Assembly: GCA_002483145.1 (NCBI GenBank) | Contig: DLHJ01000016.1 | Coordinates: forward strand, 515,564-579,563 | Direction of reading: 5' to 3' | Source: Cellvibrio sp. UBA7671 | Lineage (GTDB): Bacteria > Pseudomonadota > Gammaproteobacteria > Pseudomonadales > Cellvibrionaceae | DNA length: 64,000 bases | In this document: positions 1 to 11,208 of the stretch, in pieces | Position numbering within the stretch: the stretch's first letter is position 1 | How the letters are laid out: every line of letters begins with the position of its first letter | The notes under the pieces: generated by a model | What the model was told of the DNA's origin: nothing | Database searches by the model: none | Seen by the model: the letters and a program-made list of their open reading frames with translations, nothing else | Made by a program: the position numbers and the translations under genes

Positions 1-27
1 TGTGTAGGTTCTTGTTAGTGAGTTAAA

Positions 28-63
28 GCCGAAAACCGCACTAAGTATTAGCGGGTTTTCGGC
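28..63 (-). terminator. Hairpin after the first minus-strand operon
   Basis: GCCGAAAACCGC (28-39) pairs with GCGGGTTTTCGGC (51-63), with one bulge and a short A/T-rich loop. It sits 10 bases past the stop of the small minus-strand gene at 73. On the minus strand only a short T-run follows, so termination strength is uncertain. Confidence 0.5.
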
Positions 64-72
64 CAGATAGGC

Positions 73-267
73 TTAATTGCGGTTTTCGACATCAAAATAG
101 CTAGCCAGATCGTCTGGAGCGCTATTATTGGTGCTGTTTTCGGTATTAATGCGTTTTGCGGCATTTTGATCGCAATCCTTCAGGGAGCGCTCTATCTCCA
201 GTGCTTCACGGTTGTCTCTCCAGGCTTGCAGATCCATCTGATCGACATTGGCTTTCAAGTTGGTCAT
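73..267 (-). CDS. Small hypothetical protein, 64 aa
   Basis: I do not recognise this protein. It is soluble, charged, and rich in Asn and Asp, with no membrane segment or signal peptide. The ATG is preceded by GAGGA about seven bases upstream, a good ribosome site, which supports it being real. It is the last gene of a minus-strand run that starts with the relaxase at 2175, nine bases after the 277-744 gene, so it is probably co-transcribed with the mobilization genes. Confidence 0.5.
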   Translation of the reverse strand: MTNLKANVDQMDLQAWRDNREALEIERSLKDCDQNAAKRINTENSTNNSAPDDLASYFDVENRN

Positions 268-276
268 GACTGTTCC

Positions 277-744
277 TCATAAAAAGTGGCTGCTTACCAG
301 TAGAAATTGGTCGTCATTGATCTTTCCCTTATTCCTGGCTGCATTAAGGAATCCGTACAGTTGATCTGAGTCAAGGGATTTGGTTACTACAGCGGCAAGA
401 GCTAGAGCCGCTTGTGTCTGCTCGCACAGTGCAGCTTCCTCGCTTGGTGTTCCTCCTGCCGTGTAGATTTCTCCACAGCTTAAGGCAAATGGAATTTCTC
501 CAACTTTTGAGACTGTGATTCTTACCGCATATTTCTCCTTTTGGTTGTCGCCCGTGCTAAAACTGATAACAGAAAGGCGCATGCTTGTTGCAATATCATC
601 AAACACATCCTCCGGGTAGTGTGTCGAGGAATAAATTATGACTTGTAGTTCTCGGCCCAGTCTCTTTTGAAGCTCATCTACTTTTGCATGTACCTCTTGG
701 AGCCTTTCTTCCTGGGTGATTTTTTTCAAATCTATTGCTTTCAT
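277..744 (-). CDS. Hypothetical protein of the mobilization operon, 155 aa
   Basis: I do not recognise the family. The N-terminal part (residues 5-35) is charged and probably helical. The middle reads like an alpha/beta domain, and the C-terminal third is Ala-rich helical. I chose the ATG at 744; an in-frame TTG at 759, directly behind the relaxase stop, is possible, and neither has a strong Shine-Dalgarno sequence. The gene lies immediately downstream of the MobA/MobL relaxase in the same direction, so an accessory role in transfer is plausible but unproven. Confidence 0.55.
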   Translation of the reverse strand: MKAIDLKKITQEERLQEVHAKVDELQKRLGRELQVIIYSSTHYPEDVFDDIATSMRLSVISFSTGDNQKEKYAVRITVSKVGEIPFALSCGEIYTAGGTPSEEAALCEQTQAALALAAVVTKSLDSDQLYGFLNAARNKGKINDDQFLLVSSHFL

Positions 745-759
745 AATAGGTGGGCTCAA

Positions 760-2175
760 TTAGATATTTGGAGATTTTGAATTGTCGAAATTGCGGCGAG
801 TTTGCTGCTCGTCATTATCACTTTGAAAGTCATTGGCGTTATCAAATCGGTTGGTTTCCTCGTGTGCTTTATCCAGCTTTTCTGGAGCTGATTTAATGTC
901 AGAAGCCAAGCCATTTTGGGGCAGCTTTGGTTTGTATTTTTCCAGTTCTTCTGGGGTGGGTTTATAGCCCTGCACCTCTATGCCCATCATTTGCCCTTGC
1001 GCCCAAATTCGGCGGCGATATTCGTCATCACCGAAGGCTCGAATTTCTTTCCACTCACCCTTACGGAGCTTTCCTTGCGCAAGCTCAAGTTCGGCAGCCA
1101 GCGCCCACTCACTTATTGATTGGGAATAGATAGCTTTACCTGTATCTCTAAATGCTTCTTCGCCCTTTAATTTGCCTGCTCCCCAGCGATATATGCCTGC
1201 GTCGTCGGCTCGAAACATGTTAATTACACGACCCTTATTCGGATCAATTTCAACGGGTTTCCAATACTCCGCCAGCTCTTGCTTTTGAAGTTTTTTAATT
1301 GGTAAGTTCTGCGCTTTTTCGGCCTCTTCTTGGGAGCTTGCAACTCCGCCGTGATGAGGTAAAAGTTCAGTGTTAATTGCTGCTTTTTTCATTTTCAGAC
1401 TCCTAACGTCTTGGTGGGTTAAACCTATATTGATAATGTTGTTTGCTTGTTTAATTAACTCATTGGCCTGCCAGCGAGTTGCACGATCGATGTACCCCAT
1501 GCGAGCCAACTGTGTGTGAATTTTTCCAACGTGAATTTGAGGGATTTTATGGGTTATCCCTTGCTCTTTTAGGGATAGCTCACTGATGCGGATGTCAAGG
1601 CCTGCTTTTTTTAATTCTTCATTGACAATATCCGCCCATGTTTTCCTGATTTTTGATATTTGTTGGCTTCCTGTAGGCAAGCCATTTTTTCTTAAGCGGT
1701 CATCGCTCCAATTTAGTTTTATTTTTCCTTCTGAAAGTGTTCCATCGGCTTGCATTGATCTTGTTGTCATTAAAAGGTGAGCATGAATATTTCTGTGGTC
1801 GCCTTTCTTGCCTGGAGCGTGGACGCAAACGTCTATAGCTGCACCGTACTCGGTGATTAAATGGGTAGAAAATTCACTAATTATTCGCTGATGTGCATCT
1901 CTCATTAATTCGTGCGGAAGTGCAAGTTGCCATTCTCTGGCTACTCTTGCGTTAGATGCTTTTTCTGACTTCTCAGCTAAATTCCATAGCTCAGATCGAG
2001 AGAGTCCTGCATTGTTAAAAAGAAAGGTTTCTAAAACTCCGTACCGCCTAAAACGATTTATTTTGCCGGTTCTTTCATCAACAATAGTTTGTCCGGCTCT
2101 GTATGCCGCTGCCGCGGTTGCAGTGTCGCCTTTTGAGCGCGACATGTTTTCAGTTTGACAATAAAAAATTGACAT
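760..2175 (-). CDS. MobA/MobL family (MobQ) relaxase
   Basis: Conjugative relaxase that would nick its oriT and pilot the strand into a recipient. The N-terminal domain (about residues 1-210) has the MobA/MobL features: the start MSIFYCQTENMSRSKGDTA, the AAAAYRAG segment, and the metal-binding histidine motif HRNIHAHLL near residue 128. The C-terminal part (about 310-425) resembles the LPD7-type domain that often follows relaxases (EIRAFGDDEYRRRIWAQGQ). RSF1010 MobA continues into a primase domain; I see no such domain in these 471 residues. It heads a minus-strand operon of three genes, and the inverted-repeat-rich DNA upstream is the obvious oriT candidate. Confidence 0.9.
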   Translation of the reverse strand: MSIFYCQTENMSRSKGDTATAAAAYRAGQTIVDERTGKINRFRRYGVLETFLFNNAGLSRSELWNLAEKSEKASNARVAREWQLALPHELMRDAHQRIISEFSTHLITEYGAAIDVCVHAPGKKGDHRNIHAHLLMTTRSMQADGTLSEGKIKLNWSDDRLRKNGLPTGSQQISKIRKTWADIVNEELKKAGLDIRISELSLKEQGITHKIPQIHVGKIHTQLARMGYIDRATRWQANELIKQANNIINIGLTHQDVRSLKMKKAAINTELLPHHGGVASSQEEAEKAQNLPIKKLQKQELAEYWKPVEIDPNKGRVINMFRADDAGIYRWGAGKLKGEEAFRDTGKAIYSQSISEWALAAELELAQGKLRKGEWKEIRAFGDDEYRRRIWAQGQMMGIEVQGYKPTPEELEKYKPKLPQNGLASDIKSAPEKLDKAHEETNRFDNANDFQSDNDEQQTRRNFDNSKSPNI

Positions 2176-2197
2176 ATGAATGGCTCTTGATTTTCAC

Positions 2198-2370
2198 TTT
2201 TCGCGTAGCGAAAACGCATGACTCACTTGTGAGTCGTATATGCGCTCTTCATTCGGCAGAGGGCCTTGTGCGTGCCAGGCCATAACTACGTTCAAATATC
2301 CAAACTCTATTTTCTACGTGCAGTCAGGTTGCGCGTAGGAAAAATATTTTTCCGTGCTCCGTAGAAAATA
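2198..2370. other. Candidate oriT: cluster of inverted repeats upstream of the relaxase gene
   Basis: The roughly 310-bp gap (2176-2487) between the divergent relaxase and the 122-aa gene has no ORF of note but is full of symmetry. TTTTCGC/GCGAAAA lies at 2198-2214 and GACTCAC-TT-GTGAGTC at 2220-2235. TATTTTCTACG (2308-2318) pairs with CGTAGAAAATA (2360-2370), and inside that pair is a perfect 16-bp palindrome at 2338-2353. MobQ-family oriTs commonly lie right beside the relaxase gene and contain such repeats. I cannot identify a nic site. The same repeats may also serve as operators for the two divergent promoters. Confidence 0.5.
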
Positions 2371-2487
2371 TTTTCAAAATCATTTATTGGCAAAATAAAA
2401 GTTTAGAAAAGTACACTTTTTTCTTGTGTGGCATGTGCTAACCAATAAAACTGGATTGGTGTAATTAAAATTCAGTGGAGGTGAAAT

Positions 2488-2856
2488 ATGCATGCAAAGC
2501 CGTCTTTTATAACGGGCAAGGAATGGAAAGTTATTTGTGAAAAGGCAGATGGTGGGGATAAGGAGGCGATAGATTTCAAAAAATCTGTAGAACAGTTTGT
2601 GGCTAAAGCAAAAGGCTTTGCGCAACAGGAATCTGCAAAGGAAAAGAAAAATCGTAACCATGAGGTGTTTATTGTTGGTGGAGCGATTCTAAATGAGATG
2701 TCGAAAAATCCATCATTCAGGGACGTTATCAAAAAAGTGATTGATCGTAATGTGCGGAAGAAATCGGATATCCAATTTTTAACTGGCAGAGGCTGGAGTG
2801 TATATGAAAAAGATGATTCAGATAGTGGCGTTCATACTGCTAGCACTTCAGTCTAA
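2488..2856 (+). CDS. Hypothetical 122-aa protein, possible mobilization accessory
   Basis: Unrecognised, basic, Lys-rich soluble protein with no signal or membrane segment. A strong GGAGG lies eight bases before the ATG. It is divergent from the relaxase and starts right after the candidate oriT, which is where small DNA-binding mobilization helpers (MobB/MobC-like) are often found; this is inference from position and charge only. Its 3' end overlaps the next gene's start by 53 bases in a different frame, so the two are probably translationally linked. Confidence 0.55.
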   Translation: MHAKPSFITGKEWKVICEKADGGDKEAIDFKKSVEQFVAKAKGFAQQESAKEKKNRNHEVFIVGGAILNEMSKNPSFRDVIKKVIDRNVRKKSDIQFLTGRGWSVYEKDDSDSGVHTASTSV

Positions 2857-5116
2857 TGTTATTTTTGCCTCGATTACTGAGGTAAGCTCGACTGATAAAA
2901 GCGTGGAGTATCTGCGTTATATTTTCGGCAGTGTGGTGGACGTGATAAATGGAGGTACTGGGCCTTCCAGTCCGGACTCCATAATTGGCGCTCTCTCAGA
3001 AGTTTTGAATGCGGGAATGTTGATATTTACGGGGTTGATTATCGGCTATACATTTCTGACCGGTATTCTCAATTCAGCTCATGAGGGGAATCCTTTAGGT
3101 AAAGCTTACAGTACCATGTGGATTCCGTTGAGAATGGTGTTTGCACTCGCGCTTGTGCTTCCATTTGCTGGTGGATATTCGAGTATGCAAATTGGTGTTA
3201 TATGGGTGGCGGGGCATGGTATTGGGCTGGCGAATTCAGGGTGGAATAAAACGCTGGATTATATGGGTGCGTCAGGCACTTTATATCCGCCCCAAGTTTC
3301 AACGGATTTTGAAAAAATCGCCGCACAGATCCTTGAGTCTAGAGTATGTATGCATGGCATTAATACAGCGGATAGGCATGCCAATATCGAGGAAAAACCG
3401 ATTGAAATTGTTGATAACAATCAGGTGACTAATATCAAACAATCGGCTGTTGCTGAAGAATTGAAAATGCCTGTTCAGCATCGTGTCATGCAGCGCTATG
3501 ACAGTCGCTATGGTTTGGCTGGTGCAGGTGTTGCGTATGGTGCGGCATTTCTCTCGGGTTTCCCCAGCGGAATTCCGCGAAACTACGGATCAAATCCTTG
3601 TGGCTCCATCGAGCTGAAATTTTCTGAAATCGATGAGAGCATGAATATAGAAAACGACGTGCGTAATTTTCAGGTAGATATCATTTCTGCCCATGCAGAT
3701 TTGGATGAGGGTCTTGATCCGCTTGCTCGCGCAATTGTGCTTAAAACTGTTGACAATAATGCTCCAGATCCAGACCCGCTCGCATTCAATAATTCCGTAC
3801 AGATATACAAAGCTGCTTACATGAAAGCAGTAAACGACGCGATGTCGGCTATTGCTACTACACGCTTGAATAAATGGGATGGCGGGAATCCGGATACAGC
3901 ACTAACGACTTTAGGGGCACGTGACGCAGGATGGCTTACTGCAGGAGCTTGGTATTGGGATTTTCAGAGAATTAATGCGGAAACTCAAAAGATGGTGTCG
4001 GTAAAACCGGAATTGACGGGGCCGACATCTGATGTGATGGATAATAGTGATTACCAAAACTTCATAAACACATTGAGTAACTATCGCGTCAATATGAATG
4101 TCCCTGACTCCAATGGGAATATAGTTACTGCTTTGGAGCGCAGCAGCTATGCGGATGACAACAGCGGATTAAAAATAGTGCTGTATACAATCCAGCGGGC
4201 ATTAGATATTGCTCTGGCCGATCCTGATCCATTGTCGGGTATGGCTAATATAGGTCATTCGATCATTACCGGGTTTGAGGTTGCATATTTTGCGGCGCTT
4301 CCTGCCAGGGGGGCAGCTCGAACAGCGGATGATGTAGCCGAAGGCGTAGGCGGTTTGGCTGGAGGAGCAAGAACAGTGACATCCCCGATATTGTTCCTCT
4401 TGGAGGAGGCCAGCAAATTATTTTTGTTTGCTGCGTTATTGCTTTTGCCGCTGGCTTTGATGCTGGCCTTTTATCTCCCCGCCACACCAATAATTTTATG
4501 GATTATGGGTATTGCTGGTTGGTTTGTGCTTGTAATTGAGGCTGTGATCGCCGCGCCTATTTGGGCAGTTTCTCATGCAATGCCCGAAGGGCAGGGGTTT
4601 GTAGGGCAGCGAGCGCTTGCTGGCTATATGGTGCTTTTATCGCTTTTCCTGCGGCCGATTTTGATGCTGTTCGGATTTTTTGCTGCAATGGTTCTGATCA
4701 TTGTGATGGGGAGGGTTGTCGCTATTCTGTTTATTCCAGCGATGTCTTCCATGATCGGCGATTCCTTATCCGGAGTTGTTTCCCTCATCGCTATGCTTGC
4801 TATTTTTGTGGCTGTGATGATTCAAATTGCGCATAGGTGTTTTGGATTGATTCATGAGGTTCCAGACAAAGTTTTAAGATACATAGGGGGCGGTGCTGAA
4901 AATCTTGGTGAGAGCAATCAGGAACAGCAAAGTCGCAATATCTTTGTCGGTGGTGCCGCTAAGGTGGTTAGTAACGGCGAGCGTTCCATGCGGCAGGATG
5001 CCTCTTCTGCGGCCTCCAGTGTTGGGCAAAAAATGGGGGGAGGTTTTGGCAAAGTGGCTAACGCTGCAAAAGGTGGAATGAGCAAAATAGGTAAAATGCT
5101 TTCTACTTCCAATTAA
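2804..5116 (+). CDS. DotA/TraY family type IVB transfer membrane protein
   Basis: Inner-membrane protein of I-type (type IVB) conjugation and Dot/Icm systems. It has a signal peptide (residues about 1-24). An N-terminal block (DKSVEYLRYIFGSV, NPLGKAYSTMWIPLRM) is typical of DotA/TraY. After a large periplasmic region comes a cluster of hydrophobic segments (about 540-690) with the family-like AMPEGQGFVGQRALAGY and LFLRPILMLFGFF. The tail is Gly/Ser-rich. At 770 aa it is close to R64 TraY as I recall it (about 745). ATG at 2804 was preferred over GTG at 2798 because GGAG lies five bases upstream of it. No other type IVB genes are visible in the window. It may complement a helper apparatus or belong to a set lying to the left. 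Confidence 0.85.
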   Translation: MKKMIQIVAFILLALQSNVIFASITEVSSTDKSVEYLRYIFGSVVDVINGGTGPSSPDSIIGALSEVLNAGMLIFTGLIIGYTFLTGILNSAHEGNPLGKAYSTMWIPLRMVFALALVLPFAGGYSSMQIGVIWVAGHGIGLANSGWNKTLDYMGASGTLYPPQVSTDFEKIAAQILESRVCMHGINTADRHANIEEKPIEIVDNNQVTNIKQSAVAEELKMPVQHRVMQRYDSRYGLAGAGVAYGAAFLSGFPSGIPRNYGSNPCGSIELKFSEIDESMNIENDVRNFQVDIISAHADLDEGLDPLARAIVLKTVDNNAPDPDPLAFNNSVQIYKAAYMKAVNDAMSAIATTRLNKWDGGNPDTALTTLGARDAGWLTAGAWYWDFQRINAETQKMVSVKPELTGPTSDVMDNSDYQNFINTLSNYRVNMNVPDSNGNIVTALERSSYADDNSGLKIVLYTIQRALDIALADPDPLSGMANIGHSIITGFEVAYFAALPARGAARTADDVAEGVGGLAGGARTVTSPILFLLEEASKLFLFAALLLLPLALMLAFYLPATPIILWIMGIAGWFVLVIEAVIAAPIWAVSHAMPEGQGFVGQRALAGYMVLLSLFLRPILMLFGFFAAMVLIIVMGRVVAILFIPAMSSMIGDSLSGVVSLIAMLAIFVAVMIQIAHRCFGLIHEVPDKVLRYIGGGAENLGESNQEQQSRNIFVGGAAKVVSNGERSMRQDASSAASSVGQKMGGGFGKVANAAKGGMSKIGKMLSTSN

Positions 5117-5118
5117 CC

Positions 5119-5511
5119 TTAAGAAAAAAACCAACCCACCAATGAAAGGTATTTGAATGATTTTGAAGCCAACGCTTCCACCACCTCCGGTGGGAGCGTT
5201 GTGTTGATCCAATAAGCAATTAATCCCTCACCAAAAATTGCAGCATGCGTGAGCGAAAATACCAGTGCTGAAATAACAAAACTGGTTAAGCTGTGCATCG
5301 GTGTGACTGTTACTCCACTGAAGGTCGTCCAGCGTCGTCTGAGAGGACTAATGAATCCAATCAGGGCCAGCGATATAAATAAAAGCCAGAGCGCTATTAG
5401 CCCGCCGCTGAGAAAAAGGCTTTTCCAAACATTTAAGTCCCAGCCTGATTCAAGTTTATTAGCCCAGCGGATCATCTCACTAGTTCGCATACCCCAGTCA
5501 CTATTCGACAT
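5119..5511 (-). CDS. Small membrane protein, 130 aa
   Basis: Unrecognised. Two or three hydrophobic segments are visible: one about residues 30-55 (FLSGGLIALWLLFISLALIG), one about 72-92, and a short one at the C terminus. I chose MSNSDWGMRTSEM as the start because the upstream gene's stop overlaps it (ATG inside the last codons of the 5501-5803 gene), a sign of translational coupling. It is convergent with the DotA/TraY gene, whose stop is three bases away. Small membrane proteins beside TraY-like genes can act in entry exclusion; that is only a positional guess. Confidence 0.55.
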   Translation of the reverse strand: MSNSDWGMRTSEMIRWANKLESGWDLNVWKSLFLSGGLIALWLLFISLALIGFISPLRRRWTTFSGVTVTPMHSLTSFVISALVFSLTHAAIFGEGLIAYWINTTLPPEVVEALASKSFKYLSLVGWFFS

Positions 5512-5803
5512 AATTATTCTCCTGGAATGCTTTTGCCCAGCGGAAGCTGACCCATTTCGAAGCGAGCACCCAAAATGCAAACGCGATGAGCGTTACTTTT
5601 GCCAGAGTCTCGTAGTTTGGAATTACCGTAAGGGCTAACATGTAAGCGATTGTCAGGGCCACCACATATGTGAGACCACTAATTACCATGGAGGCTTGAA
5701 AGCGCTTTATTGCCGCTGGATTCGTATAACCTTTGTTTTTCATAAAACGGCAAAAATCGTTGTATCTCTTTTTTCGCAGTTGCATCAGATTATTTTGATT
5801 CAT
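5501..5803 (-). CDS. Small membrane protein, 100 aa
   Basis: Unrecognised. A basic N terminus (MNQNNLMQLRKKRYNDFCRF) is followed by two hydrophobic segments at about residues 39-62 and 67-85. It overlaps the downstream 130-aa membrane protein by 11 bases, so the two form a coupled pair that probably works as one unit in the inner membrane. The ribosome site is weak. An AAACAATTGTTT palindrome lies about 25 bases upstream (about 5825-5836) and could be an operator. Confidence 0.5.
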   Translation of the reverse strand: MNQNNLMQLRKKRYNDFCRFMKNKGYTNPAAIKRFQASMVISGLTYVVALTIAYMLALTVIPNYETLAKVTLIAFAFWVLASKWVSFRWAKAFQENNYVE

Positions 5804-5884
5804 TTCTGTCTCTCATCGAACGATAAACAATTGTTTGAATGGGTAACGTACAAGAACATCTGGCACTGTCAAATTGACTGGAAG

Positions 5885-6202
5885 TCACTCCTTTTCGTCC
5901 ATCTCATCCGTATTCGAGGGGGCTGCTTGCAGCATGACTCGTTCTTTGTTGAGCGCGCCCCAATCGCTGATTCGGTAGTATCCATGGCGACGGCCCTGTA
6001 CCCGTTCAATTACCATGAAATATTCTCGATGTAGCTTATCCAACATAGCGTGAATTGATCGCTCGGGAATTCCTGTATCGGTGGTGAGCTTTTTTAGGTC
6101 TGGCTTCTCGATTTTTTCAATTGCAACAATAAGTGACAGTACTCTGCTGAAGCTGCGGGCTGGGACTTCCTGATTTGAATATTCCAAGTCATTTGTAGTC
6201 AT
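5885..6202 (-). CDS. Winged-helix DNA-binding protein, 105 aa
   Basis: Predicted transcription or replication regulator. Residues about 18-80 read as a winged helix: three helices with LKKLTTDTGIPERSIHAMLD as the helix-turn-helix, then a beta hairpin (YFMVIERVQGRRHGYYRIS) as the wing. The start has a clear AGGAGA five bases upstream. It lies downstream of repC on the same strand with about 120 bases between, so it may be part of the replication operon or control the membrane-protein pair that follows. The exact family is not recognised. Confidence 0.6.
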   Translation of the reverse strand: MTTNDLEYSNQEVPARSFSRVLSLIVAIEKIEKPDLKKLTTDTGIPERSIHAMLDKLHREYFMVIERVQGRRHGYYRISDWGALNKERVMLQAAPSNTDEMDEKE

Positions 6203-6321
6203 AACGTTTCTCCTATAGGTAATTTATTGAGTTTTTTTGCCACTAAATTTTCTTTTTCTGGCTCGTGGTAAGGCTATGCCGACACGGCAAATTTGCCGCG
6301 CCTAGTGGATTATTTGGATAA

Positions 6322-7263
6322 TCATGGATGAGTTTCTCCATTCCCTCCCAAAGCTGCGCGAATGCTGCGATCTGGGTGGTTAGGGCGTGACAGTTGCCGG
6401 GGGGATTCGTGACAGTTATCGGGGGCTTTGTGACCGTTATCGTGGGTTGGTCTTGTGATCTCGAATTTTCCTTGGGCATATTCGGTCACCAGCCACCCGA
6501 TGCGGGATAGTTCTGGTAAGCAGTCTCTAGCACGTTGCCGCCGCTTACGCATGGTGCTGCTATTGGCTGGTTCTGGCCAGACATAAGAGCACAGTGTATC
6601 CAGCTCGATACGGCGGGATTTGCCGTGATCTATCCAGCCGCACAGGCGCTGATGAATTAGGCGGGCTGAGTCACTTTTGAGTGAGCGGACTTCCCAAAGA
6701 TCGATGCGGATGTGCTGTCCACCCATAACGGCTTGGGCAATCATTGGATTCAACGCAACAAATAATTTTCCTGCCACATCATCGCTGGCGTACTCGGCCA
6801 ATAATCGAAAGCCGCGACGTTTTCCGCCTGATAGCGCAATTATCGAAACCTTCCACAATCGTTCTATACAGTCCCGAATCGGCTTAGTGTCCTCGATATT
6901 GGCATAGCCAATTTCTCTTGCCAGTGCTCGATAACTACCTTTCACCACCATGGCATCTTGCTGGATTGCATCCCACTTTGGCTCCATAAACATCCGAAGC
7001 TGTAGTCCAACTTCAGTTTTTGGATCTGGCGACAGCACTAGACCAGCAGGGCCTGCCATAGCAACTAACCCCTGCAGAATGCGCAAATCGTCCGCACCTA
7101 ATGGTTCTGGGCCACTGAATTCAATTTTTTGGCCTTGACCAAATTCATAGACCACATCGAGCTTGCTGGTTTTTCGCTCACCCCGTTTTAAGCTACGAAA
7201 TAGCCCAGGTGCGAGACAGTGGGCTGGGTCATGCCGGGCGTGAGTTAAATCAAACTTCGTCAC
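6322..7263 (-). CDS. repC: IncQ-type replication initiator RepC
   Basis: Iteron-binding initiator of IncQ replicons. The protein matches recalled RSF1010 RepC along nearly its whole length: HVRHDPAHCLAPGLFR-like start (here HARHDPAHCLAPGLFR), FSGPEPLGADDLRILQG, AMVVKGSYRALA, CIERLWKVSIIA, STMRKRRQRAR and a C-terminal FEITRP. I chose GTG at 7263 because GAGGGG lies six bases before it; the longer TTG start (7293) lacks such a site. It overlaps repA by 14 bases. About 38 residues follow the point where RSF1010 RepC ends, and this extension is encoded by 21-22 bp direct repeats. Function as an initiator is inferred from family. Confidence 0.9.
   Translation of the reverse strand: MTKFDLTHARHDPAHCLAPGLFRSLKRGERKTSKLDVVYEFGQGQKIEFSGPEPLGADDLRILQGLVAMAGPAGLVLSPDPKTEVGLQLRMFMEPKWDAIQQDAMVVKGSYRALAREIGYANIEDTKPIRDCIERLWKVSIIALSGGKRRGFRLLAEYASDDVAGKLFVALNPMIAQAVMGGQHIRIDLWEVRSLKSDSARLIHQRLCGWIDHGKSRRIELDTLCSYVWPEPANSSTMRKRRQRARDCLPELSRIGWLVTEYAQGKFEITRPTHDNGHKAPDNCHESPRQLSRPNHPDRSIRAALGGNGETHP
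6387..6451. repeat. Three iteron-like 21-22 bp direct repeats
   Basis: Three imperfect tandem units begin at 6387, 6409 and 6430, each starting GTGACAGTT or GTGACCGTT and continuing with a G-rich run. They lie inside the 3' end of repC, in the part encoding its C-terminal extension, and translate as seven-residue repeats in more than one frame. RepC proteins bind about 20-bp iterons at oriV, so these could be iterons or a degenerate copy. No other tandem repeat of this period was seen in the element. Confidence 0.5.
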
Positions 7264-8092
7264 GGCGAGCCCCTCTTGTTTTTGTGGGCTCAAGGATTGC
7301 TGGCTTTAATATTCCGCCTTCGTGTTTGCGAAACCAGCGTTCTTTGAAAGGGGCGCCATAGTTGGCCTTAGAGATACCAAATCGGACGAAGTATGCACGT
7401 TGGGATTCATCGACACCCCAAGTCTCTGCCTCCGCTTGGGTCATACCCGCAAGGTAGGCTTGCCAGCGGACGTTATCGACCAGCACTGACGAGCCGCGGC
7501 TGGCTTGTTGCAAGTCCCCTGAGCCGGACATTGCTGCACCCTTGCTGGCATGATGTAAAAAAATAATGGAGCAGCCGGTGTCTGCTGCAATGGATTCCAT
7601 CGCGCCCACTACCTGGCTCATGGGGCCACTAGCGTTTTCCTCTTCAACGTGGAAGCGCCTCAGCGTATCGAGAACCATCAGGCGGCATCCTTGGGCGGCC
7701 TTGAGAAGCTCACTACGCCATTGTGACCCCATGATGTTTGGCAATACACCGATCAATGGGAATACCGCAAGCTTGCTAGCGATGAGCTGCTTTTGGTCTT
7801 CGCTCATATGTTTACCCATTGCATGCAAACGATGATGAATAGCGATAAGAGGATCTTCGGCGGGCAGGTAAGTTACCGTGCCTTGTATGAGCTCTCCTAT
7901 TTCTAGTAGGTCTGGCCCGCCCGCAATTTGCAGGGACAGCTGTAGAGCCAGCATGGATTTTCCGGCACCACCCGGGGATACCAGCGCACCAACTGTGCCT
8001 GCCACCATATTTGGCAGAACATAATCGACAGGTTCGGGTTCAAAATCGAACGCTTTTCCAATATCCAGAGCATTTCCAAGCAGTGAGGTCAC
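7250..8092 (-). CDS. repA: IncQ-type replicative helicase RepA
   Basis: Hexameric RecA-fold 5'-3' helicase that unwinds IncQ origins. It matches recalled RSF1010 RepA closely: DYVLPNMVAGTVGALVSPGG followed by Walker A (GGAGKSMLAL, about residues 40-48), YLPAEDP, LMVLDTLRRFHVEEENASGP (Walker B region), IIFLHHASKGAAMSG, QASRGSSVLVDNVRWQ and a C-terminal GGILKPAILE. Its 280 aa is the family length. The GTG start overlaps the preceding gene's TGA (GTGA), so translation is coupled in the order HTH protein, repA, repC, as in IncQ plasmids. Confidence 0.92.
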   Translation of the reverse strand: MTSLLGNALDIGKAFDFEPEPVDYVLPNMVAGTVGALVSPGGAGKSMLALQLSLQIAGGPDLLEIGELIQGTVTYLPAEDPLIAIHHRLHAMGKHMSEDQKQLIASKLAVFPLIGVLPNIMGSQWRSELLKAAQGCRLMVLDTLRRFHVEEENASGPMSQVVGAMESIAADTGCSIIFLHHASKGAAMSGSGDLQQASRGSSVLVDNVRWQAYLAGMTQAEAETWGVDESQRAYFVRFGISKANYGAPFKERWFRKHEGGILKPAILEPTKTRGARRDEV

Positions 8093-8292
8093 AGGAGGCC
8101 TCCGTTGCTTCTTTGCTCTTTTAGCCAGGAATGGAAGGTCGATTCGGGGAATAATCTTCTCCGGCCAATTTTCACCGAGGGTGGCATTGGCTCCCCTCTG
8201 CAGTGCCGGTTTCGGAGCCCGCCTGTTGTCATGCAGAGCAGTGATGCAGCTTGTTCGTAGGTGAGATATCGCTCTGATTGGTGAGTATCCAT
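8089..8292 (-). CDS. AlpA/excisionase-like HTH protein, 67 aa
   Basis: Small DNA-binding protein with a MerR/AlpA-type helix-turn-helix over almost its full length (YLTYEQAASLLCMTTGGLRN, then VKIGRRRLFPESTFHSWLKE). Such proteins act as excisionases or transcription regulators in integrated elements. I chose the ATG at 8292, with GGAG five bases upstream. It occupies the position that the Cac repressor (gene F) has in RSF1010, heading the repA-repC operon, but belongs to a different fold. It is divergent from the unknown gene at 8401, with an inverted repeat between them that it may bind. Confidence 0.7.
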   Translation of the reverse strand: MDTHQSERYLTYEQAASLLCMTTGGLRNRHCRGEPMPPSVKIGRRRLFPESTFHSWLKEQRSNGGLL

Positions 8293-8359
8293 CGTTACTC
8301 CATATGTCATGAAATAGTGTGGTGTGATGATGGATGATTGACTCTATGCGCGAGTGACT

Positions 8360-8397
8360 TTAAAGTGTCTTTTTATAATTATGAAAAGGCACTTTAA
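8360..8397. promoter_or_regulatory. Divergent operator/promoter inverted repeat
   Basis: TTAAAGTG (8360-8367) and CACTTTAA (8390-8397) form a perfect inverted repeat that extends inward with one mismatch. A TATAAT box (8374-8379) lies between the arms, pointing toward the plus-strand gene that starts at 8401. No convincing -35 was found at 16-18 bases. The arrangement suits a repressor site covering a promoter between the HTH gene and the unknown gene. Confidence 0.5.
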
Positions 8398-8400
8398 TTG

Positions 8401-9438
8401 ATGAGAGAGCAAGCCAAGTCAATATCGGCATTTGCTGCAAATCCTTTGCGTGCTCGCATGTTGATTCGCGAGCTTGAGCGCAAGTGCCTAGAAGTAAAGC
8501 CAGTTGATGATGGAGAAAGATTTGATCGCTTCGAACATCTAAACCATTTTATTGAGCGCCACCAAAAGACTTTTGTTTTACCAAGGCGACCATTTTTCAG
8601 GTGGCGGAATGGTGAGGCTCTTCCAAATCTAACCACCCGTAAGCTTATTGATGGCCTATTTTCCGAACGGATTGGGAGTAAGTGGGGTGGGCGAGGTATT
8701 GACGATCCAGAGCAAACTTTGATGGTAGCGCTGGATTTAATAAGTCTATCCAATGCACCAAATAATCACGAGACTCTAGCGGAAGCTGAAGCAATATTGG
8801 CGAAGGTTAACGCTGCTGTGCGAGATTTAATCCCAAAAATTCCTAACCTGGATAAACCAAAGTTTTCATCCTATAGAGGTGGTAAGGCCCTCGGTTCACT
8901 CGTTCAGCGAAAACCAAGCCGCTATGCGAATTTAGCGGGTAGGAGGGTTGTGGCTTATCCATATATCACTGATCGAATTAGTCCATACGACACTGTAAGT
9001 CCTTTATGTGCAGTGCTGATGTATCTGATAAAGCCAAATAACAAAACCGTGCTTCCGGCTGATCTTGCGCAAACGTTGCTGTTGGATTTTATCAGTGGTG
9101 TCATTGCTGCCTACATTTTAATGCTGCATCGCAATCCCACTGAATTTCAAACTGGTGGCTTGGTTGTGGATTTGTATCGGTTGGTATATCAGCTTTTTCT
9201 ATGCGGAGGTACAGAGTGGAATGTAAAAAAATCGGAATTGATAAAAGAGGTTTTTTACAATCGATTTTCTGGGCTTCCTGTTGAAACAGAGCAATTAAAA
9301 TCGAGAATTGGCTTATTGGAATCGTTGTTCGACAACCACATGAGGAAGGCTGGAATATCTTCGGCGGAATTAACAAAGTTTGTTGAATCAATCGATCCTA
9401 GTTCATTCAACAAGGTGATTAAATGGTGGTCAGGCTGA
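8401..9438 (+). CDS. Unknown cargo protein, about 345 aa
   Basis: I do not recognise this protein. It is soluble, with basic N-terminal helices (RARMLIRELERKC) and a W/G-rich patch (RPFFRWRNGEALP, then SKWGGRGIDDPEQ). A hydrophobic stretch around residues 205-240 is more likely a buried helix pair than a membrane anchor. The ATG at 8401 follows AAAAGG by about 12 bases. It is the only plus-strand gene between the replication and toxin-antitoxin modules and has its own divergent regulatory region, so it is probably independent cargo. Converging rnlB ends 18 bases after its stop. Confidence 0.6.
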   Translation: MREQAKSISAFAANPLRARMLIRELERKCLEVKPVDDGERFDRFEHLNHFIERHQKTFVLPRRPFFRWRNGEALPNLTTRKLIDGLFSERIGSKWGGRGIDDPEQTLMVALDLISLSNAPNNHETLAEAEAILAKVNAAVRDLIPKIPNLDKPKFSSYRGGKALGSLVQRKPSRYANLAGRRVVAYPYITDRISPYDTVSPLCAVLMYLIKPNNKTVLPADLAQTLLLDFISGVIAAYILMLHRNPTEFQTGGLVVDLYRLVYQLFLCGGTEWNVKKSELIKEVFYNRFSGLPVETEQLKSRIGLLESLFDNHMRKAGISSAELTKFVESIDPSSFNKVIKWWSG

Positions 9439-9455
9439 AGGGTTTGAAAAAACTT

Positions 9456-9794
9456 TTAATGTAAAAAATCACTTAATTCTGCGGGCGTCAAAACGCTGTC
9501 TTTAAGAAAGCTCGGGTCTTGCTTCATCAAAAAGTTTTGCTCCTCTCGGAGCAATGGATCAACAACTGATTCCACACTAAATGATTTACGATCAAAGGTA
9601 TGACCATCAAATTCCACGCTCACAAAACGATTGTCAGTGAGGCCATTTACTGACAGTAGATCAAGCAGGACGCTTCCCTTGAATCTTAATGATTCAAGTT
9701 CTTTGCTTAGCTGAGATAAATGGCGCAATGGGTTCATTTCGGCGTTAGCCGTCACTACGGCGATATTGCCCACAATGCGAATTCTATTAATCAT
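9456..9794 (-). CDS. rnlB: RnlB antitoxin of RNase LS
   Basis: Antitoxin that binds and inhibits the RnlA endoribonuclease. At 112 aa it is near E. coli RnlB (123 aa). It shares the pattern NPLRHLSQLSKELESL, then VLLDLLSVNG, NRFVSVEF and a C-terminal SVLTPAELSDFL, which parallels the E. coli protein as I recall it (NPLSSVNEIETKL, ILFDLLCANG, NRFVTLEM, SVLSPDDVRQVL). It starts three bases after the rnlA stop, the same gene order as in E. coli, so the toxin and antitoxin are co-transcribed. Confidence 0.85.
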   Translation of the reverse strand: MINRIRIVGNIAVVTANAEMNPLRHLSQLSKELESLRFKGSVLLDLLSVNGLTDNRFVSVEFDGHTFDRKSFSVESVVDPLLREEQNFLMKQDPSFLKDSVLTPAELSDFLH

Positions 9795-9797
9795 AAG

Positions 9798-10892
9798 TTA
9801 CATTCTAGCAGTGAGTAGACCATCAATAACTCTATATGCTTCTTTCGAGAGCCCAATCGCTTTCTCTAACGTGTCAACTGTTCTGCTGCCGTCAGCGAAC
9901 TCTTCCATATGAAAGAGGCCGTGCCGATGCTTGCAGAAGAAGCTATAAGCCTCATTAAATGCTTTCACCATACCGGCGTGAGCAACCGAATTAGAGTAGT
10001 CTTCTTTTAGCTTAAAACCTTCTTGTGCTTTGTCAAAAAAATCTCCAAACCCATTCTTTGCATCAGCTACAGACATGTTGTAGCCAATCAGCTCCTCTTT
10101 TAATACACCCTCAAGCGCTCTCAGATCAGGATATACAAGCATAGAGTAATCTGGCAGTTGCGGTGCCGCGAGTTTAACGCAGCAACCTGAAATTAATAAC
10201 CTTTGTACTAATCCGGGAAGTAGCTCGTAGCTGCGCGAAAAGAATTTTTTTAAATAGTCTTCTGCCATTTCTTTGCGAACTATCTCGGCAACTCCGTCGT
10301 CTTTCCTGCAGATTACTTGCTCAAGGCCGCCAATATCTAAAAGTTCTGAAAGCAAATAGACAATTCGGCGATAGCAGGAAAGTGGTTTTCCTTGAATCTG
10401 TAGTGTTCTGGTATTTCTATGATGAGTTATTACTAGTCGGTCCTGATGGGCTTTATTACAAATAGCTACCTGAAGCTTTTGAGCATCCTCATGGAGTTTT
10501 TCACATTCAATATCACCGGCCTCGCAAGCTTGGCTGAGGATTGATTCTATGTCACCAGAAGTAATTCCCTTGAGCGCTAGATTGACTTGCTCGAACTCGT
10601 TTGGATCAATCGTTGCTTTGAGGTGGTTTGCAAGCTCTTGCCCCAAGGGCTGATTTTTTCCGAGCATCCAATGAATAGTGGTTGTTCCATTTTTATTTAG
10701 ATATAGATCAACTGTTGCAAAGTCACTGCCTGCTCTTCCAAATTCTGCACGTTTTCCCTTTGGTTGTTCCTTTAGCTGCCCTCCATCAAGTGTCAGCCCA
10801 TTTTGTTCAATGAAAGCTTGGACATAAGAATTAAGATTCTCTCTGTTCAGATTAAGTTCCTTGTAATCAGACACTGGCGGCTCCTTTGTCAT
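9798..10892 (-). CDS. rnlA: RnlA toxin, RNase LS endoribonuclease
   Basis: mRNA-cleaving toxin that in E. coli blocks phage T4 growth when the phage lacks its Dmd antitoxin. Matches to recalled E. coli RnlA include YKELNLNRENL near the start, FATVDLYLNKNGTTTIHW, SLGQELADHL-like (here PLGQELANHLKATIDPNEFE), KLQIQGRPLSCYR-like (LQIQGKPLSCYR), the strongly conserved CCVKLAAPQLPDYSMLVYP and a HRHGLFHME tail motif. I chose the ATG at 10892, which aligns with the E. coli start; an in-frame extension to 11024 is less likely. The gene lies about 170 bases from the tRNA, the usual cargo position at the end of an integrated element. Confidence 0.9.
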   Translation of the reverse strand: MTKEPPVSDYKELNLNRENLNSYVQAFIEQNGLTLDGGQLKEQPKGKRAEFGRAGSDFATVDLYLNKNGTTTIHWMLGKNQPLGQELANHLKATIDPNEFEQVNLALKGITSGDIESILSQACEAGDIECEKLHEDAQKLQVAICNKAHQDRLVITHHRNTRTLQIQGKPLSCYRRIVYLLSELLDIGGLEQVICRKDDGVAEIVRKEMAEDYLKKFFSRSYELLPGLVQRLLISGCCVKLAAPQLPDYSMLVYPDLRALEGVLKEELIGYNMSVADAKNGFGDFFDKAQEGFKLKEDYSNSVAHAGMVKAFNEAYSFFCKHRHGLFHMEEFADGSRTVDTLEKAIGLSKEAYRVIDGLLTARM

Positions 10893-11063
10893 GTTTAATT
10901 TGTATTGGTCTATGTAACCCCAGTGTAACCCGAGGAAAGCGGCTTGAGTAAGTATGAATTGATTACGATTAAGCTCTTGCGTGAGGGTTACGAAGAAATG
11001 AACCCTTGAGTCGAAGCAAATCAAAAGCTACATTTTGTAACTTATTGAATTTTATAGTAAAAA

Positions 11064-11140
11064 TGGTGGGCCCAGCTGGACTTGAACCAGCGACCTGCCG
11101 ATTATGAGTCGGATGCTCTAACCAACTGAGCTATAGGCCC
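11064..11140 (-). tRNA. tRNA-Ile2 (anticodon CAT, lysidine-type)
   Basis: A 77-base tRNA with encoded CCA (11064-11066). The acceptor stem GGGCCTA pairs with TGGGCCC with one G-T pair. The D arm is GCTCAGTTGGTTAGAGC, the anticodon loop CTCATAA and the T arm GCTGG-TTCAAGT-CCAGC. A CAT anticodon can be Met or Ile2. The anticodon-stem start, GGTCGCTGG and T arm are close to E. coli ileX as I recall it, so Ile2 with C34 modified to lysidine by TilS is preferred over elongator Met. It is the integration site of the element to the left. Confidence 0.9.
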
Positions 11141-11167
11141 TTGAAACTCTTTTGCCCTTGACCCATT

Positions 11168-11208
11168 GATTATGAGTCGGATGCTCTAACCAACTGAGCT
11201 ATAGGCCC
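11168..11208 (-). pseudogene. Partial tRNA-Ile2 copy (5' half)
   Basis: These 41 bases are identical to the 5' half of the intact tRNA (11100-11140), from the first acceptor base through the anticodon loop, and are offset by 68 bases. The 3' half is missing, so it cannot fold. It lies upstream of the intact tRNA in the same orientation, separated by 27 unrelated bases. It may be a leftover of recombination at the anticodon region of the tRNA (an att scar) or of a tandem duplication with deletion. Confidence 0.85.

Follow-up and report, generated by a model that had tools for sequence, protein, structure and literature searches.

The locus studied here raises the question why DotA/TraY, a channel protein of type IVB conjugation machines, is encoded beside a MobQ relaxase with no other visible component of such a machine. 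It lies in a stretch of 64,000 nucleotides (the window) of Cellvibrio sp. UBA7671, a soil bacterium, corresponding to C18:515564-579563 in a genome of 5.04 Mb on 19 contigs that is 99.85% complete. An earlier note, made from the sequence of the window, had proposed that the TraY-type protein replaces its counterpart in the pore of an I-type helper, for example to escape entry exclusion, as known from SGI1, and that two coupled small membrane genes next to it form a matching exclusion device. Our analysis confirmed the anatomy of this lone-DotA locus and supported its interpretation in part. The gene is located on an integrative and mobilizable element (IME) which appears to use helpers with a type IVB machine (mating-pair formation type I, MPF_I), and we consider it fairly probable that the IME's own DotA alters the borrowed pore so that exclusion fails.

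A lone DotA/TraY on an integrative and mobilizable element

The dotA gene is found at 2804-5116 on the forward strand (its open reading frame (ORF) is open from a GTG at 2798, the likely start being the ATG at 2804). Its product matched TIGR04346 with an E value of 1.8e-127 and 427 bits, compared to a curated cutoff of 100, over model positions 2-656 of 656, and is thus a full-length member of the DotA/TraY family. It also matched the chain of a solved DotA structure (9ngy, E 2.9e-39) and was the sole TIGR04346 match in the genome. Predicted structures were of too low quality to be used, with a mean predicted local distance difference test score (pLDDT) of 62 for the partner protein described below and 38 for DotA. 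A table in PMC12624023 places TraY, DotA and TraG of F in the VirB6 class, which strengthens the analogy to SGI1, and DotA has been described as part of a central pentameric assembly and proposed to form a portion of the channel (PMC12857230); here and below, statements taken from publications refer to passages of the papers cited.

The relaxase gene, at 760-2175 on the reverse strand, codes for a MobQ protein with PF03389 above cutoff (E 2e-45) and a C-terminal LPD7 domain (PF18821, 1.1e-11); the NCBIfam model NF041496 was matched with E 7.6e-50 and 169 bits, below its 200-bit cutoff. Both genes lie where the earlier note had put them and belong to the families that it had named. Between them we located a putative core of the origin of transfer (oriT) at 2216-2250 on the forward strand, consisting of an inverted repeat followed by a conserved stretch that we take to be similar to nic, and a gene for a MobC-like relaxosome accessory protein (2488-2856, forward strand), which overlaps the start of dotA.

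In order to define the borders of the element, we included the stretch to the left of the window (L001; ORFs listed for the nearest 20 kb). A 47-bp direct repeat brackets the IME, one copy (attL) at L001:15207-15253 and the other (attR) at 11064-11110 of the window, within the 3' part of a tRNA-Met (11064-11140, reverse strand). From the first to the last repeat base, the IME spans 15,904 bp (C18:510770-526673); its right-hand 11.1 kb occupy positions 1-11110 of the window, and its left end lies outside, at C18:510770. To the left of the window lie an integrase (L001:15399-16634; PF00589 2e-13, Arm-DNA-bind_3 3.5e-11), a DUF2290 protein and a helicase (together at L001:16869-19752; DUF2290 3e-11), and then the chromosome with a parC-like gene, recognised by reading its translation. 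An ordinary integrative and conjugative element with a type IVB operon in this direction, the alternative raised in the earlier note, was thus rejected. Such a complete operon is refuted because no protein of the type IVB test set described below, other than DotA/TraY and the partner, had a homologue in the whole IME, and because DotI (PF11393) had no match in the genome, although this one model also came up empty for further genomes with a DotA and proves nothing on its own. A search of the genome for DotB gave eight matches, which we take for ATPases of the pilus and type II kinds and which are not diagnostic. With an integrase and bounding att repeats, a MobQ relaxase and oriT-like motif of its own, and no complete conjugation apparatus, the element has the predicted make-up of an IME.

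Conservation of the core in sister elements

A DotA match was found in three of 21 genomes of the genus, namely the window genome, G006 and G005, the last with a shorter frame of another type. The sister element of G006 is located beside another tRNA-Met and comprises an integrase, an AAA_25-type Rep gene, the partner, DotA, mobC and MobQ. A genome scan with a DotA alignment led to three loci, one of which is a 15-kb contig of Hahella ganghwensis with the same core, on which neither an integrase match nor an att copy was found. At the level of the order, TIGR04346 matched in 10 of 391 genomes (window genome included; 7 above cutoff), and one of these, G421, holds a fourth element, again at a tRNA-Met. 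The att copies are alike at 45/47 positions in G006 and at 39/47 in G421. The core common to the four elements consists of MobQ, the oriT motif, the MobC-like gene, dotA and a small convergent partner gene. In all four, the oriT motif separates MobQ from mobC, its repeat arms co-vary (GACTCAC/GTGAGTC in the window, GACTTG/CAAGTC in the others), and the first bases of dotA fall within the last part of the mobC-like gene. The name of the latter is based on its position and on the Hahella homologue, which weakly matched (E 0.004) an Acinetobacter 'mobilization protein'. The survey of sisters suggested in the earlier note thus bore out its expectation, DotA being kept in all three and no other tra genes being found there.

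Compared to the other three elements, the window proteins are 64% (DotA), 57-59% (MobQ), 82-92% (integrase, two of three), 31-32% (mobC), 32-33% (HTH43) and 33-39% (partner) identical; a separate comparison of the mobC-like gene with that of G006 gave 30%. Hahella and G421 are much closer to each other (DotA 99%, partner 97%). For this pair, the ratio of nonsynonymous to synonymous substitution rates (dN/dS) of DotA was 0.024 (dS 0.25), the lowest among six genes, and DotA is under purifying selection in this one usable pair, its synonymous sites being saturated in the other two. We also observed that the block MobQ-mobC-DotA-partner-HTH43 is 96-99% identical between Hahella and G421 but the Rep proteins only 75-79%, which suggests a block exchange. 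The DotA relative of G005 (L010:9701-14751) is located near a gene which, by eye, looks transposase-like; some of the relative's initial residues occur again on the far side of this gene.

Regarding the two coupled small membrane genes, both are present and overlap by 11 bases, but only one is conserved. This partner gene (5119-5511, reverse strand) codes for a predicted inner-membrane protein of 130 amino acids and is a candidate for an entry-exclusion factor. Homologues were found beside dotA in the three sisters and also in a type IVB system, that of Teredinibacter purpureus, in which the homologue follows dotA at a distance of about 0.9 kb with no other annotated gene in between. A plasmid search with the partner matched the Teredinibacter record alone at E up to 0.01, and two of the 391 order genomes contained it, both together with an IME dotA (ten first-look candidates scored per genome). 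The other gene (5501-5803, reverse strand), coding for a membrane protein of 100 amino acids, was found in 1 of 144 family genomes, the window genome itself; it was sought in the Hahella and G421 sisters and not found, and its product had no similarity to that of the second membrane gene at the Teredinibacter locus. As the conserved half of an exclusion pair it was rejected on these grounds. A small convergent gene beside DotA on the Pseudomonas aeruginosa plasmid L055 was considered as a homologue of the partner, and no similarity was found.

TraY and putative exclusion genes on small plasmids

Searches by tblastn with DotA and TraY queries led to eight plasmids of 13.7-40.1 kb from Burkholderia multivorans, Xanthomonas axonopodis, X. 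fragariae, X. vasicola, Pseudomonas viciae, P. orientalis, P. syringae and P. syringae group genomosp. 3 (NZ_CP082179 of X. fragariae, 20,157 bp, was known from a listing alone and is not counted among the eight). All of them carry TraY with a putatively ExcA-like gene, the gene after traY coding for a product of 167-174 amino acids, and four have TraX homologues. PLSDB assigns half of the eight to the mobilizable and half to the non-mobilizable type; five have a relaxase annotated as MobA(P), among them the 22-kb p11K1 of P. viciae, which is one of those typed as non-mobilizable. We then compared ten small elements, i.e. three IMEs and seven plasmids, with 76 proteins drawn from four type IVB systems, of which those of P. 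aeruginosa and Teredinibacter contributed partial sets. A tblastn match was obtained for 11 of the 76, namely TraY/DotA (4 queries), TraX (3), Exc/partner (3) and, over a short stretch, a GIY-YIG nuclease (1), and the remaining 65 had no match in the ten elements. The eighth plasmid (L057; 38,226 of 40,085 bases) and the G421 element were checked by ORF comparison instead, and L057 gave matches to TraY and Exc only.

Since DotA/TraY queries could miss small plasmids on which a different tra gene stands alone, TraY, TraU, TraO and TraW of Stutzerimonas were used as queries in a control. Among the best 60 of more than 3,000 records each, plasmids below 45 kb numbered eight for TraY and zero for TraU, TraO and TraW (8/60 vs 0/180; Fisher p 1e-5). 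This p value is only a guide because we fixed the 45-kb limit with the small TraY plasmids already in view (a TraO record has 47,286 bp), because the best 60 of more than 3,000 records were used and because the records are related.

The order traX, traY, excA is that of R64, and the same block is found in IncI, IncL and IncM plasmids such as R64 and pOXA-48, where it sits in a complete transfer region, whereas here it stands alone on small elements. Transfer of R64 and pCTX-M3 requires traY (PMC6112013), and exclusion by pOXA-48 requires ExcA (PMC12365149). Fourteen proteins encoded after traY, eight from larger and six from small plasmids, were aligned and compared with R64 ExcA by hhalign, resulting in a probability of 95.7% and E 1e-8. 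The NCBIfam ExcA model NF033891 matched, in all cases under its cutoff, the proteins of P. viciae (7.7e-5), P. orientalis (1.2e-3) and a Stutzerimonas plasmid (8e-8). As to TraX, two larger plasmids, of Bordetella (L053:3464-6184) and Citrobacter (L054:3416-6130), code for TraX-TraY fusions of about 905 amino acids (hidden Markov model E 5e-33 and 1e-20). In X. vasicola (L025:6435-6779, 114 amino acids) and P. orientalis (L026:2571-2897, 108 amino acids), a short membrane protein is encoded before traY, in the position of TraX; the two are alike by eye, and the TraX profile misses both.

Phylogeny and divergence of DotA/TraY

A tree of TraY proteins was calculated from 26 rows, not including L052, whose TraY match is split in two, L021, L010 and the remote relatives of DotA in L042-L045. 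Rows were taken as full systems by their neighbouring tra genes, L020 by Teredinibacter-like neighbours and L055 mainly by its MPF_I typing; the long branches of R64, L055, Cupriavidus, Citrobacter, L020 and Bordetella call for caution. The DotAs of the IMEs cluster with that of Teredinibacter (support 99; 92 for the four as a group) and are well separated from the TraYs of the plasmids; on either side there are TraYs that belong to type IVB systems. The simplest reading of this arrangement is that DotA/TraY was captured at least twice. Among the plasmid TraYs, three placements are suggested, the separating branches having a support of 80-91.

Mean identity among full-system proteins was 0.74 for TraY and 0.51 for Exc, compared to 0.57 and 0.20 between orphan ones, encoded without a full system, and full ones (6 orphan, 5 full TraYs). 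The drop in identity of the orphan TraYs is largest at about residues 200-240 and 354-550 and lesser near 630: around residue 431 identity falls from 0.86 to 0.56, and around residues 120 and 550 from 0.86 to 0.82 and 0.79. The part of TraY that is recognised by ExcA is the central region in the case of R64 and the C-terminal one in the case of R621a (PMC12365149). In the same work, pOXA-48 and pCTX-M3 were found to differ more in the traX-traY-excA block than in other genes, and the authors suggest a gene exchange.

Candidate helper

The closest DotA that we found is encoded on NZ_CP060093, a 249-kb plasmid of Teredinibacter purpureus that PLSDB types as non-mobilizable; it is 62-63% identical to the DotAs of the four elements and is likewise accompanied by the homologous convergent partner gene. 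Unlike the IMEs, the plasmid has a large set of type IVB genes in addition to dotA. The plasmid codes for a TraU/DotO homologue (31% identical to Stutzerimonas TraU, E 4e-154), for IcmW and DotI over their cutoffs, for proteins annotated as DotH family, and for DotG, DotM, DotB, DotD, TraQ and TrbC-type matches that are all under the curated cutoffs. By these homologies, the comparison shows that DotA and partner of the IME type belong to a large type IVB set in this plasmid, and the plasmid or a relative of it may mobilize the IMEs. The helper postulated in the earlier note is consequently retained as to its type IVB kind but not as IncI, the closest candidate being a Teredinibacter-type plasmid.

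Proposed escape from entry exclusion and alternative explanations

We propose the following course of events. A helper with a type IVB system would enter the cell, and the IME would nick its own oriT by MobQ and MobC and produce its own DotA/TraY from the mobC-dotA operon. This DotA would take the VirB6 position in the channel of the helper and, as its central region differs, the exclusion protein encoded by a helper in the recipient would fail to recognise the pore. In this way the IME could enter helper-bearing cells, in which onward movement is possible. The partner may act as the matching exclusion factor, blocking a second copy that uses the same DotA.

This proposal builds on SGI1, which substitutes TraG and thereby disables or evades IncC exclusion (PMC5389848). 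Like SGI1, whose TraG is 37% identical to that of the helper (PMC5389848), the IME seems to be a mobilizable island that carries a VirB6-class exclusion target belonging to one type of helper. The two differ in that SGI1 uses an IncC helper of type MPF_F and carries TraN, TraH and TraG, whereas the IME is matched to type IVB and has a partner gene and no other pore gene that we could find. None of the TraG, TraH and TraN families was among the Pfam matches of its main proteins, and the IME is not a member of the SGI1 family. A second precedent comes from a 2017 review, in which GIsul2 and an IncP island are listed with TrbJ, TrbL and TrbK or a TrbK-like gene (PMC5704250). Here, too, a VirB6 homologue and an entry-exclusion gene (proposed for the IncP island) are located on a mobilizable island, and the IncP island likewise has its own relaxase and RepA (PMC5704250). 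In contrast to our elements, these islands relate to an IncP-type MPF_T, also carry a VirB5 protein (TrbJ), have a MobP relaxase or none, and lack DotA/TraY. Taken together, the IMEs and small plasmids look like a type IVB counterpart of SGI1 and GIsul2. Among the titles and abstract openings listed by searches of the open-access literature, we found no report of TraY/DotA on mobilizable elements; one may still exist.

Several observations weigh against our proposal. SGI1 acts with TraH and TraN as well. The presumed helper comes from another genus, and no DotI-bearing helper was found in the window genome. The exclusion role of the partner is proposed from position, size and co-occurrence; its variability within the IME set is matched by that of mobC and HTH43. 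The idea that it is a relative of ExcA did not hold, as no homology to ExcA-type proteins was found (hhalign probability 0.2%). On the side of the plasmids, R64 ExcA had no tblastn match in the small plasmids, and NF033891 misses three of five small-plasmid Exc proteins. For P. orientalis and the two P. syringae-group plasmids, which have no annotated relaxase and for which the incomplete gene table lists only a small mobilization protein named MobA, mobilization is less sure. Finally, Exc identity tracks TraY identity (r 0.88) with no clear excess, so the pattern of the two is one of co-divergence and not proof.

Alternatively, the IME DotA might adapt or boost the helper pore for the IME's own MobQ relaxosome, exclusion being secondary or irrelevant. 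The overlap of dotA with mobC, which is seen in each of the four mobilization operons, fits this explanation, as does the finding that TraG and TraH of SGI1 also raise its transfer independently of exclusion (PMC5389848). However, the gene kept with TraY codes for an ExcA-like or small membrane protein and not for a coupling protein, by which a relaxosome normally docks, and the five small plasmids with a relaxase of another class, MobA(P), still have TraY. On balance, we regard this explanation as unlikely. We find it improbable that the cassette acts against incoming type IVB plasmids, the partner excluding them and the foreign DotA poisoning their pores in a kind of fertility inhibition. 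IMEs with surface exclusion as a defence are known (IEVchAut1, PMC11493245), and our IME also carries RnlAB and the DUF2290/helicase cargo, but defence alone needs no DotA that is under purifying selection in an operon beside oriT. Equally little credit, if not slightly less, can be given to DotA as a remnant of a decayed conjugative element. Plasmids do go from conjugative to mobilizable (PMC11389934), but the purifying selection in the usable pair, the recurrence of this gene together with a neighbour in two or more groups that lie apart in the tree, the controls with TraU, TraO and TraW (no plasmid below 45 kb in the best 60 records each) and the position of the IME dotA inside a defined mobilization operon all argue against decay. 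A role of DotA outside conjugation, in favour of which we found nothing, is very improbable, given that dotA lies beside a relaxase gene and an oriT motif in four of four elements.

We therefore return to the proposed change of the exclusion target. The gene content and the borders of the IME are solid, and the recurrence of TraY with Exc on small elements is striking, with one control for search bias; the mechanism, including the escape from exclusion, is inferred on good grounds. Beyond the IME, it is quite possible, although we put this forward only tentatively, that hitchhikers of proteobacterial F-, T- and I-type machines separately captured the VirB6-class subunit, in the T and I cases with an exclusion gene, as a portable exclusion-group cassette, that TraX is included in this cassette in type IVB, and that the partner of the Cellvibrio type represents a new entry-exclusion family unrelated to ExcA. 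If so, swapping of the exclusion target would be a general strategy which extends to type IVB machines and occurs in integrated elements as well as in small plasmids. TraX, whose part in exclusion is called unknown in PMC12365149, would gain a role that can be tested, as it accompanies TraY and Exc on four of the small plasmids; its fusion to TraY in two larger plasmids likewise points to a role worth testing. The natural TraY/Exc variants could moreover be used for the mapping of specificity.

Other features of the element

Directly downstream of MobQ, a small gene (277-759, reverse strand) is kept whose homologues adjoin MobQ in Hahella, G421 and G006. On the other side of the partner follow, all on the reverse strand, an HTH_43 winged-helix regulator (5885-6202; PF09904 5.6e-10), which is kept in the sisters, a RepC-type replication initiator (6322-7293; PF06504 3.3e-141), a RepA-like AAA_25 ATPase (7250-8092; PF13481 9.3e-31), an excisionase-like HTH_17 protein (8089-8310; PF12728 9.8e-6, slightly below cutoff) and an RnlA/RnlB toxin-antitoxin cargo (RNase LS; 9456-11024; PF15933 1.2e-20, PF19034 1.6e-28, PF19417 3.2e-24). 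The latter is likely anti-phage cargo, as is the DUF2290 protein with its helicase, which match PADLOC models (helicase 7.2e-109). The Hahella contig carries a different anti-phage candidate, PDC-M68B (1.3e-53). Upstream of the intact tRNA-Met, at 11162-11208, the window contains a second 5' half of tRNA-Met (43/47 bases alike), as if left over from an earlier event, and the tRNA-Met of G006 is adjoined by a stretch partly similar to this second half (25/47).

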